Assembly (NCBI GenBank): GCA_029781865.1
Contig: JAKOVW010000090.1
Coordinates: 1-64,000, forward strand
DNA from: Bacteroidota bacterium
GTDB taxonomy: Bacteria; Bacteroidota; Bacteroidia; Chitinophagales; Saprospiraceae
Length of the DNA stretch: 64,000 bases
Direction of reading: 5' to 3'
Shown here piece after piece: positions 1 through 42,418 of the stretch; within the stretch, counting starts at the first letter, position 1; the number at the start of each line of letters is the position of its first letter. A model generated the notes under the pieces. That model was not told the DNA's origin. It did no database searches and worked only from the letters and a program-made list of their open reading frames with translations. The translations under genes and the position numbers were made by a program.

Positions 1-126
1 CAGTTAGCAGTTAGCAGTTAGCAGTTAGCAGTTAGCAGTTAGCAGTTAGCAGTTAGCAGTTAGCAGTTAGCAGTTAGCAGTTAGCAGTTAGCAGTTAGCA
101 GTTAGCAGTTAGCAGTTAGCAGTTAG
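1..126. repeat. Perfect heptanucleotide array, 18 x CAGTTAG
   Basis: Eighteen uninterrupted copies of a 7-base unit (equivalently AGCAGTT) fill the first 126 bases. The window starts inside the array, so its full length is unknown. It is the only perfectly homogeneous member of a dispersed family; the other arrays are degenerate. A facing array of the opposite strand sense follows at 193-234 after a 66-base AT-rich spacer. Confidence 0.95.
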
Positions 127-192: not shown

Positions 193-234
193 TCATCACT
201 CATCACTCATCACTCATCACTCATCGATCATGGA
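193..234. repeat. Heptanucleotide array, TCATCAC type
   Basis: Six in-phase heptads: four TCATCAC followed by two diverged units. On the minus strand this reads ATGAGTG, the AGT-centred heptad of the family. It ends nine bases short of the TAA stop (244-246) of the minus-strand pseudo-caspase gene, with the AGT strand reading away from the gene. Confidence 0.85.
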
Positions 235-243
235 TCAGATCTC

Positions 244-4184: not shown

Positions 4185-4275
4185 ACTACAACCTATAACC
4201 TAATAGCCTAACAGCCTAACAACCTACAACCTAACAACCTAACAACCCACAGCCTATTATCTACTTCCTATAATA
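4185..4275. repeat. Octanucleotide array, CCTAACAA type
   Basis: About eleven degenerate units of 7-8 bases (CCTAATAG, CCTAACAG, CCTAACAA, CCTACAA and others) lie in the 451-base region between the divergent protease and sigma-factor genes. The G-rich strand (TTGTTAGG) is the minus strand and reads away from the nearer gene, the sigma factor. The rest of this intergenic region (3949-4184, 4276-4387) shows nothing I can name. Confidence 0.8.
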
Positions 4276-17521: not shown

Positions 17522-17563
17522 GGGGGAAAATTACGAATTATTAATTATGAACGGGTAATAGTT

Positions 17564-17633
17564 GGCAGTTAACAGTTGGCAGTTTACAGTTGGCAGTTAA
17601 CAGTTCTCAGTTAACAGTTCTCAGTTTACAGTT
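17564..17633. repeat. Heptanucleotide array, 10 x NNCAGTT
   Basis: Ten exactly in-phase heptads: the last five bases CAGTT are constant while the first two vary (GG, AA, GG, TA, GG, AA, CT, AA, CT, TA). It starts 42 bases upstream of the TauE-family start codon. The AGT strand (plus) reads away from that gene and faces the opposite-sense array at 17651. Confidence 0.93.
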
Positions 17634-17650
17634 TATTTTGGGTGTGAATA

Positions 17651-17762
17651 ATTACCAATTACTAATTAACAATTACTAATTACTAGCTCCTAACTCATCA
17701 CTTCTAACTTCTAGTTCCTAACTCCTAACTCCTAACTCTTCACTTCTCACTTCTCACTTCTT
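17651..17762. repeat. Heptanucleotide array, 16 units, ATTACTA/ACTCCTA/ACTTCTC type
   Basis: Sixteen in-phase heptads grade from ATTACTA to ACTCCTA to ACTTCTC. On the minus strand they read TAGGAGT or GAGAAGT. The array runs through the stop codon (17747-17749) and the last codons of the methylmalonyl-CoA epimerase gene. Confidence 0.93.
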
Positions 17763-18279: not shown

Positions 18280-19287
18280 TCAAACAAACCACCATCCCAA
18301 AAAGATTACGGTAATGGATACAATTAATAAAGTGATTGAATAGACCGAACAGATTGCCATCATACGCAGGATTGTGCGCCAACGGCTTCCCTGAAAATTA
18401 TATCTCAGGGCTTTACCCAGATAATACAACAAACCGAGTGCCACAAAGAAATTGATCCAACCCGGGATGGAGAAAAATATGCTGAGCAAGATGATAATAC
18501 TACTAAATAAAAAAATAACTGTGTGATAATGCAGTGAGAAAATCAAATATTCATAATAGTATTTTTTTCGATTGAAGTAGGCCAGATAAACCAGGAATGC
18601 GAAAAAAGGCATCAGGAAAAACAATGAGATCGATCCGAATTTAATAGATTTCTCTTTTATCCGTTCGGTGAAGCTTTCGTCCGCATCGTAGGATTTGAGA
18701 ATTTGCTGAATCAGGGTCCGGTTAAAATAATTGGGCGTTTTATTTTGGCTAAGGATTAAAGAATCTATTTGTTCCGGTTTGGCATTTTTAAATTTGAGCA
18801 TTTCAGCCTTGCTCATATTTATTTTAAGTCCCAAAATGTTTTCTGTAACGATGGTGTCCTGCAAACTATCTCTCGTGATGGTGGAAGATTCGTCTTTCAA
18901 TTTTTGTTCTTTATGCGGGCCATCCAAAATGACCGGGGATTTGGCTTTTTCATGATCCACAATTTTGTAAATGGTAGATGGAAACTGAAGCAGCACAAAA
19001 AAAACAAAGCTGATAAAAATATAAAGTCTGACAGGTGGTGTAAAACGGGCGCGCATGTTATCATTATAATCACGGGTAATTTTACCGGGATACATCAACA
19101 TGGTCTTTATAGTGAGTAAGACTTTGGAATCCAGATGTAAGGTAGACTCAATTAATTCGGCGGTGTAATGGCGTATTGGTTGATTGGGACTATGATTTTC
19201 TTGTCCGCAATTCGGGCAAAAATTTTCGCCTTCATTGAACGAATGATTGCAATTAGCGCATATATGTTGCCGGATTTTACGAGCCAT
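18280..19287 (-). CDS. DUF3667 zinc-ribbon membrane protein
   Basis: A 335-residue protein. An N-terminal zinc ribbon has CANC and CPNCG (about residues 10-28). HLDSKVLLTIKTMLMYPGKITRDYNDNMRARFTPPVRLYIFISFVFF is the DUF3667 signature, split by a polar loop of about 110 residues and then three to four more membrane helices. Function unknown; probably an inner-membrane protein with the ribbon in the cytosol. A six-unit heptad array begins 17 bases before its ATG. Confidence 0.85.
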   Translation of the reverse strand: MARKIRQHICANCNHSFNEGENFCPNCGQENHSPNQPIRHYTAELIESTLHLDSKVLLTIKTMLMYPGKITRDYNDNMRARFTPPVRLYIFISFVFFVLLQFPSTIYKIVDHEKAKSPVILDGPHKEQKLKDESSTITRDSLQDTIVTENILGLKINMSKAEMLKFKNAKPEQIDSLILSQNKTPNYFNRTLIQQILKSYDADESFTERIKEKSIKFGSISLFFLMPFFAFLVYLAYFNRKKYYYEYLIFSLHYHTVIFLFSSIIILLSIFFSIPGWINFFVALGLLYYLGKALRYNFQGSRWRTILRMMAICSVYSITLLIVSITVIFLGWWFV

Positions 19288-19303
19288 GGTTTAAAGATAA
19301 GTT

Positions 19304-19345
19304 GGCAGTAGGCAGTTTACAGTTTGCAGTTGCCAGTTTACAGTT
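19304..19345. repeat. Heptanucleotide array, 6 x NNCAGTT
   Basis: Six in-phase units (GGCAGTA, GGCAGTT, TACAGTT, TGCAGTT, GCCAGTT, TACAGTT) directly upstream of the DUF3667 start. The AGT strand (plus) reads away from the gene, towards the facing array at 19496 across a 150-base AT-rich spacer that shows nothing else. Confidence 0.9.
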
Positions 19346-19495
19346 TTTATTTAAAGTTAACATTGATGTATAGTAATGTTCATTGGAATTACAATAAAAC
19401 ATAAATCGCTATTGAACAATTTAAGTTTAATACTAAAGATAATGAAATATTGCTTATCATGAATTTAATTATATGAAGCTAACAAATCCATTTTT

Positions 19496-19663
19496 CACTC
19501 CCAAATCCTAGCTCCTAGTTCATCACTCCTCACTCCTCACTTCTAATTCCTAACTCCTAGCTCCTAGTTCCTAGCTCCTAGTTCATCACTCCTCACTCCT
19601 CACTTCTAACTCCTAACTTCTAACTTCTAACTCCTAACTTCTCACTCCTAGTTCCTAACTATC
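19496..19663. repeat. Heptanucleotide array, 24 units, ANYTCCT type
   Basis: Twenty-four in-phase heptads (CACTCCT, AGCTCCT, AGTTCAT, CACTTCT, AACTCCT and similar). A higher-order duplication is visible: the series AGCTCCT, AGTTCAT, CACTCCT, CACTCCT, CACTTCT starts at 19510 and again at 19573, nine units apart. The last unit shares two bases with the stop codon of the dCTP deaminase gene (19662-19664). On the minus strand the unit is AGGAGTN. Confidence 0.95.
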
Positions 19664-20198
19664 AAAACTTATTCTTCCACATCATGCTTTCCACCGGTCT
19701 CGTCGTCCGTTCATTATATTTTGCATTGGACTTTCGATTGTAATAATTGTCAATTTCTCCATTCACTTCAAAATAGATCAATTGGCCGATAGGCATTCCT
19801 GCATAGATTCGTACGGGTTGCACGCAACTGATTTCCAGGGTCCAGGTATTGCAAAATCCAACATCTCCTTTACCGGCTGTGGCATGAATGTCAATACCCA
19901 ATCGACCGATACTGGACTTTCCTTCAAGAAAGGGAACCGTATGATGTGTTTCCGTATATTCCTCTGTTACGCCCAGATATAATACGCCGGGCTGCAGTTC
20001 AAATCCATCTTCCGGTATATCAAAGTAAGAAATGGTATTGTGTTTTTTAGCATCGAGCACTCTGCCATTATAAACGGCTAAAGTTTTACCAAGATGGACG
20101 TCATAGGAATTCGTGCCGAGGCAGGACAGATCAAAGGGTTCGATTAAAATATTTCCGTTTTGAATGGCTTCGAGTATTTTTTTATCGCTGAGAATCAT
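19662..20198 (-). CDS. dcd: dCTP deaminase
   Basis: A 178-residue trimeric-dUTPase-fold enzyme that deaminates dCTP to dUTP for thymidylate synthesis. Signatures: SYDVHLG near 31-37, FLEGKSSIGRLGI (a Lys replaces the Arg found in the Escherichia coli enzyme), the catalytic Glu in WTLEIS, and PIGQLIYFE. The gene is enclosed by repeats: the heptad array touches its stop codon and an octad array starts 12 bases upstream of its ATG. Confidence 0.94.
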   Translation of the reverse strand: MILSDKKILEAIQNGNILIEPFDLSCLGTNSYDVHLGKTLAVYNGRVLDAKKHNTISYFDIPEDGFELQPGVLYLGVTEEYTETHHTVPFLEGKSSIGRLGIDIHATAGKGDVGFCNTWTLEISCVQPVRIYAGMPIGQLIYFEVNGEIDNYYNRKSNAKYNERTTRPVESMMWKNKF

Positions 20199-20210: not shown

Positions 20211-20287
20211 TTTAGGTTTTTAGGTGGTTAGGCTGTTAGGTTTTTAGATTGTTAGGTTTTTAGGTGGTTAGACTGTTAGGTTGTAGG
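20211..20287. repeat. Octanucleotide array, NNTTAGGN type
   Basis: Eight exactly 8-base units (TTTTAGGT, GGTTAGGC, TGTTAGGT, TTTTAGAT and so on) with partial units at each end. The four-unit series from 20218 recurs at 20258. It sits 12 bases upstream of the dcd start; the G-rich strand (plus) reads away from dcd. Confidence 0.9.
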
Positions 20288-40473: not shown

Positions 40474-40606
40474 AGTTCCTCACTCCTCACTTCTAGCTCC
40501 TAGCTCCTAGTTCCTATCTCCTATCTCCTATCTCCTCACTTATCACTTATCACTTATCATTCATCACTCTTAACTCCTAACTCCTCACTTCTAACTCCGA
40601 ACTTCT
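40474..40606. repeat. Heptanucleotide array, 19 units, ANYTCCT/CACTTAT type
   Basis: Nineteen in-phase heptads (AGTTCCT, CACTCCT, AGCTCCT, ATCTCCT x3, CACTTAT x3, CATTCAT, AACTCCT and others). The last unit ends on the first base of the TCA that is the stop codon (40606-40608) of the YgjP-type gene. On the minus strand the unit is AGGAGTT or ATAAGTG. Confidence 0.94.
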
Positions 40607-41358
40607 CACCAATTACATCCTTCCCCATGCTTATTGAGCCATTGCTCCGCCTTTTCATATTCAGGCATAACTTTCCTGACCAGGTCCCAAAATCGTTTGG
40701 AATGATCCATATGTACGAGGTGAGCCAGTTCATGGACAATGATATAATCAGTAATGAATTGCGGGGTCAACAGAAGCCTTGAGGATAGATTGATTATTTT
40801 ATTGGTACTGCAGCTCCCCCAATTGCTCACATTGAGTTTTAAGCGAATGCTTTTTATTTCTTTGTTGAAATGAAGTTTGTTGATTTCGTGAACCCTTCTT
40901 TTTATTTCAGGAAGAAAAACAGAGGACATGATTCTGCTGATGATCGTACTGCATAATTTGTGTTTTTGGAAGGCATCGATTCCATTGGGAAGATGAATAA
41001 CCAAAATATTCGATTTCAAACTTCCCATAGCGGTTTTTCGCTCTACATCTTCGATTACTTCCAGGATGAATTCGCGATTTCTAAGCTGTATTTTTTGTCC
41101 GGTTTGATAGTTTTTTGGAATATACCGGTTCAGCAATTTGGGATCCGTCTCTAACTTTTTTCGCAGCCAGTTGTGTGCCCAATCCAAATGCTTTTCTTTT
41201 TGCGGAGTGCTAAGGAGTAATGGCAAGCGTAGAATAGCTTTATGTTTAGCCAGACTGATGCGTGCTGATCTCCGGTTTTCATAAACGGTTTGAAGTTGAA
41301 GCGAAAAATGGCGAAACTGAATAAGGGTATACTCAGAATGGGTCTTAAGACTAGGCAT
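40606..41358 (-). CDS. YgjP-type (DUF45/WLM) metallopeptidase
   Basis: About 250 residues. The C-terminal SprT/YgjP-like zinc site is complete: HELAHLVHMDHSKRFW (HEXXH plus a downstream His). WGSC before ILNLSS-like INLSSRLLL is also typical of the family. Substrate unknown. Start taken as the ATG at 41358, which overlaps the serC stop by eight bases (ATGCCTAG), so it is probably coexpressed with serC. Its 3' end touches a heptad array. Confidence 0.88.
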   Translation of the reverse strand: MPSLKTHSEYTLIQFRHFSLQLQTVYENRRSARISLAKHKAILRLPLLLSTPQKEKHLDWAHNWLRKKLETDPKLLNRYIPKNYQTGQKIQLRNREFILEVIEDVERKTAMGSLKSNILVIHLPNGIDAFQKHKLCSTIISRIMSSVFLPEIKRRVHEINKLHFNKEIKSIRLKLNVSNWGSCSTNKIINLSSRLLLTPQFITDYIIVHELAHLVHMDHSKRFWDLVRKVMPEYEKAEQWLNKHGEGCNW

Positions 41359-42418
41359 ACTTCTTTTCGAATTCTTGCATAACGGCAATCAGCACATCCA
41401 CGCTATCCTGTTCGAGTGCATTGTACAAGGATGCCCTGAAGCCACCTACAGAACGGTGACCAGAGAGTCCTACGCAACCCGCTTCTTTACAAAGATCCAG
41501 AAAGGCGGACTCCAGTTCGGTTTTATGCGCTCTGAATACCACATTCATCCAGCTCCGGTCTTCCTTTTGCACGGTGCCATAAAAGCAGGAATTGCGATCG
41601 ATTTCAGCATATAAACTTTCAGATTTCTTTTTATTTCGTGCCTCCAGTGTACTCAGTCCCGTTTGTTTAATCCAACGCAGGGTTAGTAGAGTTACAAAAA
41701 TCGGAAACACGGGTGGGGTATTGTACATACTGCCTTTCTCCAGGTGGCTGCGATAATCCAGCATGGAAGGCATTTTGCGGCTAACTCTGCCGAGCATTGA
41801 TTTTTTGACGATAACCAGGGTCACCCCTGCGGCGCCCATATTTTTCTGCGCACCGGCATAAATTAATGAGAATTTCGAAAAATCGAGTTGACGGCTTAAA
41901 ATATCACTGGACATGTCACATACCAAAGGGATCTGTGTCTGAGGCCACCAATGGTATTGGGATCCATAGATCGTATTGTTGGAAGTGATGTGCAGATAGC
42001 TGGCATCTGAAGGTACCTGATAGTTTTTAGGGATATGATTGAAATGATCTGTTTCCGAACTGGCCAAAACGTCGATCTGTCCAAATAATTTAGCTTCCTT
42101 AATGGCCCCTGTTGACCAGACGCCGGTATTTACGTAACACGCTTTTTCAGATTCATTCAGGAGATTCATAGGTACCATGTAAAATTGGCTGCTGGCACCT
42201 CCTGAAAGCAAGAGCACGGCATATTCATCTCCAAGACCCATTAATTCCCTGGTCAGAGCCTGCACTTCATCCATAACAGCTTCAAAGGGTTTACTTCGGT
42301 GGGAAATTTCCAGTATGGATAATCCCATATTCGCAAAATCCTTGATTCCTTCTGCTGCTTGTTCTAAAACAATGGATGGAAGTATCGCCGGACCGGCATA
42401 AAAGTTATGTTTTTTCAT
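41351..42418 (-). CDS. serC: Phosphoserine aminotransferase
   Basis: About 355 residues. PLP-dependent transaminase of serine (and pyridoxal) synthesis converting 3-phosphohydroxypyruvate to phosphoserine. HNFYAGPAILP at the N-terminus, SHRSKPFEAVMDE, the PLP Lys in YAGAQKNMGAAG, and the C-terminal GLSGHRSVGGFRASLYNAL are diagnostic. The start at ATG 42418 has a TTTC-N19-TACCTTTG promoter just upstream; an in-frame upstream extension to 42439 runs through that promoter and is rejected. Confidence 0.95.
   Translation of the reverse strand: MKKHNFYAGPAILPSIVLEQAAEGIKDFANMGLSILEISHRSKPFEAVMDEVQALTRELMGLGDEYAVLLLSGGASSQFYMVPMNLLNESEKACYVNTGVWSTGAIKEAKLFGQIDVLASSETDHFNHIPKNYQVPSDASYLHITSNNTIYGSQYHWWPQTQIPLVCDMSSDILSRQLDFSKFSLIYAGAQKNMGAAGVTLVIVKKSMLGRVSRKMPSMLDYRSHLEKGSMYNTPPVFPIFVTLLTLRWIKQTGLSTLEARNKKKSESLYAEIDRNSCFYGTVQKEDRSWMNVVFRAHKTELESAFLDLCKEAGCVGLSGHRSVGGFRASLYNALEQDSVDVLIAVMQEFEKKYA

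Follow-up and report, generated by a model that had tools for sequence, protein, structure and literature searches.

The spacer at positions 17522..17746 of this stretch consists mostly of heptanucleotide repeat arrays that face each other from two neighbouring genes, which raises the question of how such arrays come to lie at gene junctions and what sets the strand on which they read. We addressed this in the window (the whole 64,000-nt stretch analysed, G000:C56:1-64000), in further contigs of the same 4.52-Mb, 93-contig assembly, and in other genomes.

Facing arrays of heptamers in the window

The spacer lies between a TauE/SafE gene (PF01925; 16745..17521, minus strand) and a glyoxalase/epimerase-like gene (PF13669; 17747..18163, minus strand) that GC skew places on the lagging strand. 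As an earlier note on this DNA had described, a plus-strand NNCAGTT array (class C; 17564..17633), which runs away from the TauE start, faces a minus-strand array at 17651-17762. When we cut the 16-unit minus array into units by eye, the 7-base phase was kept throughout and words switched without loss of register. Its description as TAGGAGT/GAGAAGT holds for 17690..17762 (class G), a segment that also supplies the last codons and the stop of the epimerase-like gene, but not for the distal segment at ~17649..17685, which reads TAGTAAT/TGGTAAT (AATTAGT, class N) in the same register.

The two other facing pairs given in that note, 19304-19345/19496-19663 and 1-126/193-234, are likewise present. 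At the first, a plus-strand CAGTT-type array (19300..19349) adjoins the start of a DUF3667 gene (18280-19287), and a minus-strand TAGGAGT array (19496..19663) touches the stop of a dCTP deaminase-like gene (19662-20198). At the second, a plus-strand array of 18 CAGTTAG units (1..126), truncated by the contig end, faces a GATGAGT array read on the minus strand (193..239), 4 nt from the stop of a caspase-domain gene (PF00656; 244-2178). One further minus-strand TAGGAGT array (40477..40603) abuts the stop of a YgjP-like gene (40606-41358 in our own gene calls, 40606-41388 in the ORF list). Anchoring at stop codons, which had been claimed for the layout as a whole, thus applies to the facing partners only; the CAGTT members of the pairs, at 17564 and 19304, are found upstream of starts.

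A period test over the 64 kb found seven period-7 and two period-8 stretches and none at periods 3-6, 9-13 or 15, with period 14 seen as a multiple of 7. The period-8 arrays (4188-4256 and 20212-20284; TTAGGTTG / CAACCTAA) lie close to start codons. The array at 1-126 is the very end of its contig, C56, and its left neighbour gene falls outside the window. Contig C2 ends in a plus-strand CAGTTAG array too (C2:26356-26527; L001), right after an ORF stop. Both contigs end inside such an array in compatible directions and, judging from their ends, may be neighbours; the assembly probably breaks at arrays.

Abundance of arrays and relation to known repeats

Our full sample covers 2.14 Mb, or 47% of a genome in draft assembly, from contigs mostly selected for containing arrays, and all layout and polarity counts for this genome use genes called with our own script. 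The sample holds 152 period-7 arrays, 145 of them mostly intergenic. Trimmed to spacers, 141 arrays remain against 0.1 in spacers shuffled within themselves, so that the arrays are real and far above chance; contig C79, included because of rpoB, is free of them over 100 kb. Period 7 dominates: in 1.264 Mb we counted 81 regions of period 7, 15 of period 8, 7 of period 9 and 0-4 for each of periods 3-6 and 10-12, with none at any period in a block-shuffled control.

The arrays are made of related heptamers, among them TAGGAGT, GAGGAGT, GATGAGT, TAGCAGT, TAGGAGC, TAGTAAT, TGATAAT and TGAATAT. Most of these contain one TAG or TGA per unit, and since each 7-nt unit shifts the frame by one base, three successive units place stops in all frames. 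As read from the sequence, the main units (AGTTAGG, AGTGAGG and NNCAGTT) have GG at most and no GGG tracts of the quadruplex type. We also considered a fixed order of words along arrays (in same-strand pairs, class G before S, N or I in 12 and S before G in one, beside eight class C or S-N pairs), which we dropped, as the pairs are too few and the order is partly a detection effect.

With head-to-tail 7-nt units above chance and mostly between genes, these arrays belong to the known heptanucleotide tandem repeats of bacteria (STRR, long SSR or LSSR, TAACTGA and GGGNATC repeats). We know of no polarity and no insertion at operon junctions for STRR/LSSR repeats. The facing, gene-anchored layout, which had been taken as novel, is published for Xanthomonas and Nostoc: in the parts of Rehm et al. 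(2015; PMC4692102) that we compared, GGGNATC heptamers are found either in the 50 bp before an ORF, in antisense, or within 50 bp of a stop, in sense, a convergent pair is shown, and repeats are under-represented between divergent ORFs. Those repeats share with ours the 7-nt intergenic unit, the G-rich strand pointing away from the gene, the convergent pair and the rarity between divergent ORFs; they differ in that the in-vitro quadruplex evidence there concerns GGG/GGGG words. Heptamer repeats are on record for Bacteroidota as well: TAACTGA direct repeats are reported from Beggiatoaceae, Cyanobacteria and five Bacteroidetes in the corresponding passages of MacGregor (2015; PMC4679880). They resemble the present arrays in their heptamer unit, patchy phylogeny, stops in all frames and occasional absence from the matching spacers of close relatives; unlike them, they consist of one fixed word before start codons (mainly so in the Beggiatoaceae genome), whereas the main AGTTAGG/AGTGAGG units in our genome lie after stops. 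Citing Mrazek (2007), the same passages state that, among genomes rich in longer repeat units, most have heptamers as their commonest class, and mention polymerase slippage as a proposed cause; in both respects STRR/LSSR repeats are like ours.

Insertion at gene junctions

In all seven congeners that keep the TauE and epimerase-like genes as a pair, the TauE start overlaps the epimerase-like stop or lies no more than 1 nt from it, and the 225-nt spacer found here is absent; in the eighth, there is no TauE match within the 1.5 kb examined. The same was observed in the ATP synthase operon, where heptamer arrays occupy G000:C37:35519-37237 (L109:15519-17237) with two arrays facing each other in the atpB-atpE junction (atpB and atpH are confirmed by Pfam, the other atp names come from sequence and gene order). 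Compared with all eight congeners, the atpB-atpE junction is 205 nt long against 32-95, atpH-atpA 148 against 9-88, and atpF-atpH 50 against 4-23, while the array-free atpE-atpF junction is similar (186 against 179-209). On these spacer comparisons, the arrays are lineage-specific insertions at gene junctions. In the congener G004, the atpH-atpA junction contains a short run of another heptamer, CAACTAA.

Layout relative to genes

The layout was scored in the first 1.264 Mb on 65 flanked arrays that could be oriented by their AGT core; outside this set are 23 merged arrays without orientation, two in genes and two at edges. The gene behind the AGT strand is the closer gene in 49 of the 65, and a 3' gene end lies behind that strand in 46. 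The rule that the AGT strand reads away from the adjacent gene is therefore a majority behaviour and not the strict one first proposed. Random orientation or random distance to genes, named in the earlier note as what would overturn the rule, is not what we see, since both are far from random in the 47% of the genome sampled. These 49 of 65 arrays are also those that conform to the layout of Rehm et al. (2015), with the G-rich strand antisense before starts or in sense after stops.

Most TAGGAGT arrays begin, in sense, no more than ~20 nt from a stop. This position would suit elements at transcript 3' ends, with facing arrays pairing into extended RNA hairpins by which transcripts coming from either side would be terminated or protected. 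Folding gives this some substance (z-scores from our own approximate dinucleotide shuffles, 60 each): facing pairs of the same word are very stable, as in three pairs between convergent genes of a Prevotellaceae genome, G439 (z -7 to -13), and at C37:124380 of our genome (z -10 and -9), and same-word pairs lose about half of their energy when one arm is flipped. The pairs at 17564 and 19304, however, fold on the transcribed strand at the level of shuffled sequence (z -0.5 and -0.3), on the untranscribed (top) strand of the window pairs a flipped arm makes them more stable, not less, and C28:133826 folds worse than shuffled. Moreover, arrays sit at three junctions inside the ATP synthase operon, where transcription should pass, which argues, indirectly, against terminators; weighed against this, a stop-codon-anchored terminator is not the reading we favour, and a facing, gene-anchored layout need not imply one. 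We consider 3'-end elements an unlikely explanation of the arrays.

Insertion between adjacent genes would also be expected of mobile elements, with a Y1 (RAYT-like) transposase mobilizing, or a reverse transcriptase generating, a MITE/REP-like unit that the facing arrays would bound on either side. REP/BIME elements are intergenic, lie at 3' ends and form inverted pairs, and single-strand transposition favours the lagging template. Among neighbouring class G, S and C arrays that share a spacer we found 8 facing, 11 pointing the same way and none back-to-back, an absence that fits such a unit. Yet the middle parts and the words differ among the pairs inspected, and the unit is a tandem heptamer where that of REP/BIME is palindromic. 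No dedicated machinery was found in these two families, neither of which distinguishes our genome from its congeners: Y1_Tnp matches number four here and 0-4 there, and RVT_1 is found in one ORF here and also in 4/8 congeners. Nor are the four Y1 genes flanked by repeats as in a REPtron (REP/RAYT); none has an array within 2 kb, the nearest being ~2.2 kb away (C37:193249) and one on C74 ~9 kb away. A mobile origin seems to us the least probable of the readings weighed.

Polarity of the arrays relative to replication

What the earlier note had missed, and what appears to be new here, is the polarity of the arrays with respect to replication. GC skew at 4-fold sites, taken as the half-difference between the two gene orientations, agrees in sign with that of array-masked intergenic DNA in 13/13 sampled contigs, and the G-skew strand was taken as leading because rpoB lies on it. 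In a count that uses no words, the G>C strand of skewed intergenic period-7 arrays is the lagging one in 109/133 cases (p = 4e-14) and in 69/79 at the strictest threshold; the purine-rich strand is lagging in 100/121 and 64/74, respectively. Skewed windows of array-free spacers (n = 1070), used as a control, gave 363 lagging and 707 leading, and the period-8 arrays of the sample showed no polarity (10 lagging, 17 leading). A lagging majority is seen in all 12 array-bearing contigs, including C56, C74 and C82 with their opposite skew. A light search of the open-access literature found no report of replication polarity for heptamer arrays. In the parts of the sources compared, the GGGNATC repeats of two Xanthomonas genomes are without leading/lagging preference (PMC4692102), and replication strand is not analysed for TAACTGA repeats, although a common chromosomal orientation is noted for eight Microcystis sets located between stop codons (PMC4679880).

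The polarity depends on the word. The lagging (C-skew) strand carries 44/49 class G (TAGGAGT) and 12/12 class N (AATTAGT) arrays, 11/15 of class S, 8/13 of class I and 14/24 of class C (CAGTT), in a set where 21 of 134 merged arrays have no class and from which the spacer counts below leave out three arrays in genes and three at edges. Class G is also tied to gene direction: a sense array lies no farther than 60 nt from the stop at 34/441 3' ends of lagging genes and 3/567 of leading genes (odds ratio 15.7, p = 8e-10), a bias that elements at transcript 3' ends would leave unexplained. TAGGAGT arrays are found in 21/260 lagging-lagging, 17/180 convergent, 6/388 leading-leading and 3/200 divergent spacers, and in convergent spacers 17/18 of them read in the same direction as the lagging gene. 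AATTAGT arrays are polar regardless of gene orientation, with five in '++' spacers, six in '--' and one in a convergent spacer.

The position of the arrays at 3' ends of lagging genes with the G-rich strand in sense, their strand in convergent spacers and their presence in an ATP synthase operon that is itself on the lagging strand could together suggest polar replication barriers or conflict signals, selected for slowing or preparing the fork ahead of its encounter with RNA polymerase in head-on genes. Such signals would hardly be expected to tolerate words as variable as those within and between arrays, or to be polar irrespective of gene orientation as AATTAGT arrays are, and they are not generally needed, as a strict search for class-G words gave no match in any of eight congeners. 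We regard this reading as improbable.

A bias in the starting words could have produced the same polarity, a reading that we set aside. Short TAGGAGT-type words outside arrays have no lagging excess: intergenic TAGGAGT occurs 9 times on the lagging and 17 on the leading strand, and AGTTAG 29 and 81 times; AATTAGTAAT occurs 4 times to 1 in favour of lagging, numbers too small to judge. The polarity therefore seems to come from growth or retention of arrays and not from the words that seeded them.

Polar expansion as the preferred explanation

In the classical orientation model, a loop on the nascent Okazaki strand is copied in and yields expansion, and a loop in the lagging-strand template is bypassed and yields contraction. 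We propose that the arrays arose as tandem repeats that expand in a polar manner on newly synthesized lagging strands, combined with selection for intact genes, and put the probability of this explanation at roughly one half. Insertions at gene junctions would have grown by 7-nt steps during DNA replication, and a polar step would make or keep arrays in which the nascent lagging strand is the purine-rich (G>C) one and its template the pyrimidine-rich one. In one simple version of this step, loops of the purine-rich strand on the Okazaki strand would expand an array, and the opposite orientation would contract it. Selection would purge arrays that break genes or promoters, leaving survivors mostly just past the stops of lagging-strand (head-on) genes, where a unit's TAG or TGA could act as a stop, and facing partners would arise where arrays occupy both ends of a spacer. 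The arrays themselves, their period, layout and polarity, and their insertion as judged against congeners are observed; the slippage or loop step, replication instead of selection as the source of polarity, and the gene-integrity filter are what we infer in this explanation.

Several observations count against this explanation. TAGGAGT arrays are scarce between leading genes, which polarity by itself leaves unexplained, so that an extra gene-related rule is needed, and the CAGTT arrays are hardly polar. Polarity is also not seen in the genome G439, and for Xanthomonas its absence is reported (PMC4692102). A more specific possibility, which we hold only tentatively, is that the arrays preserve a fossil trace of polar events specific to the lagging strand where head-on genes end, with 7-nt synthesis where forks meet transcription units; if so, the strand of an array would report the direction of replication gene by gene. 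The polarity of most arrays would make them a naturally kept trace of copying that favours one strand. The prevalence of 7-nt units and the patchy spread of bacterial tandem repeats are left unexplained in the portions of PMC4679880 and PMC4692102 compared, and an array-rich polar genome with insertion points visible against its relatives offers a testable question, namely whether strand can be predicted from replichore.

Arrays in other genomes

Among 31 other relatives, the strict class-G search gave matches in three (G020, G032 and G035), with equally many in the reversed control for G020, and a 35-nt search matched 5/395 members of the class, our genome included. By these searches, class-G arrays are patchily distributed. 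Cyanobacteria, Clostridia and planctomycetes are among the groups with TAGGAGT arrays, at 80 loci or more, and the recurrence of one word in many phyla is not predicted by slippage alone. Nor is the layout special to Bacteroidota: across phyla, among the matches listed, the gene behind the strand is the nearer one in 46/62 flanked clusters and presents its 3' end in 39/62 (genes from a crude ORF caller; of 95 rows, 17 lie within ORFs and 16 at locus edges). At least 10 plus/minus neighbours within 500 nt in G441 and G442, judged by eye among the matches listed, are all facing. Clostridia-type genomes (L250, L270, L272, L276) have facing TAGGAGT/GAGGAGT arrays ~70-210 nt apart.

A second polar genome was not found in the two that we examined: G035 has no usable skew in its short contigs, and the Prevotellaceae genome G439 has no clear skew in its stretches, with arrays on both strands and three spacers carrying the same word on both.

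In G035, the arrays read TAACTCC/TAACTCA in sense, mostly near start codons, which is similar to the TAACTGA repeats and in line with the post-transcriptional or translational regulatory sites proposed for those upstream of start codons (MacGregor, 2015, in the passages compared). For our genome we find regulatory sites an improbable explanation; the main class sits at stops and its polarity tracks replication, and in the parts of Rehm et al. (2015) compared, the authors were unable to identify a role in gene regulation for the GGGNATC repeats.

The long AGTTATG/AGTTAGG arrays of G035, a member of the same order, lie mostly upstream of start codons (L176-L187), several of them beside N runs. 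In G439 (L315-L317), the heptamers CATTATG and TTTTCAT occur alongside TAGGAGT arrays.
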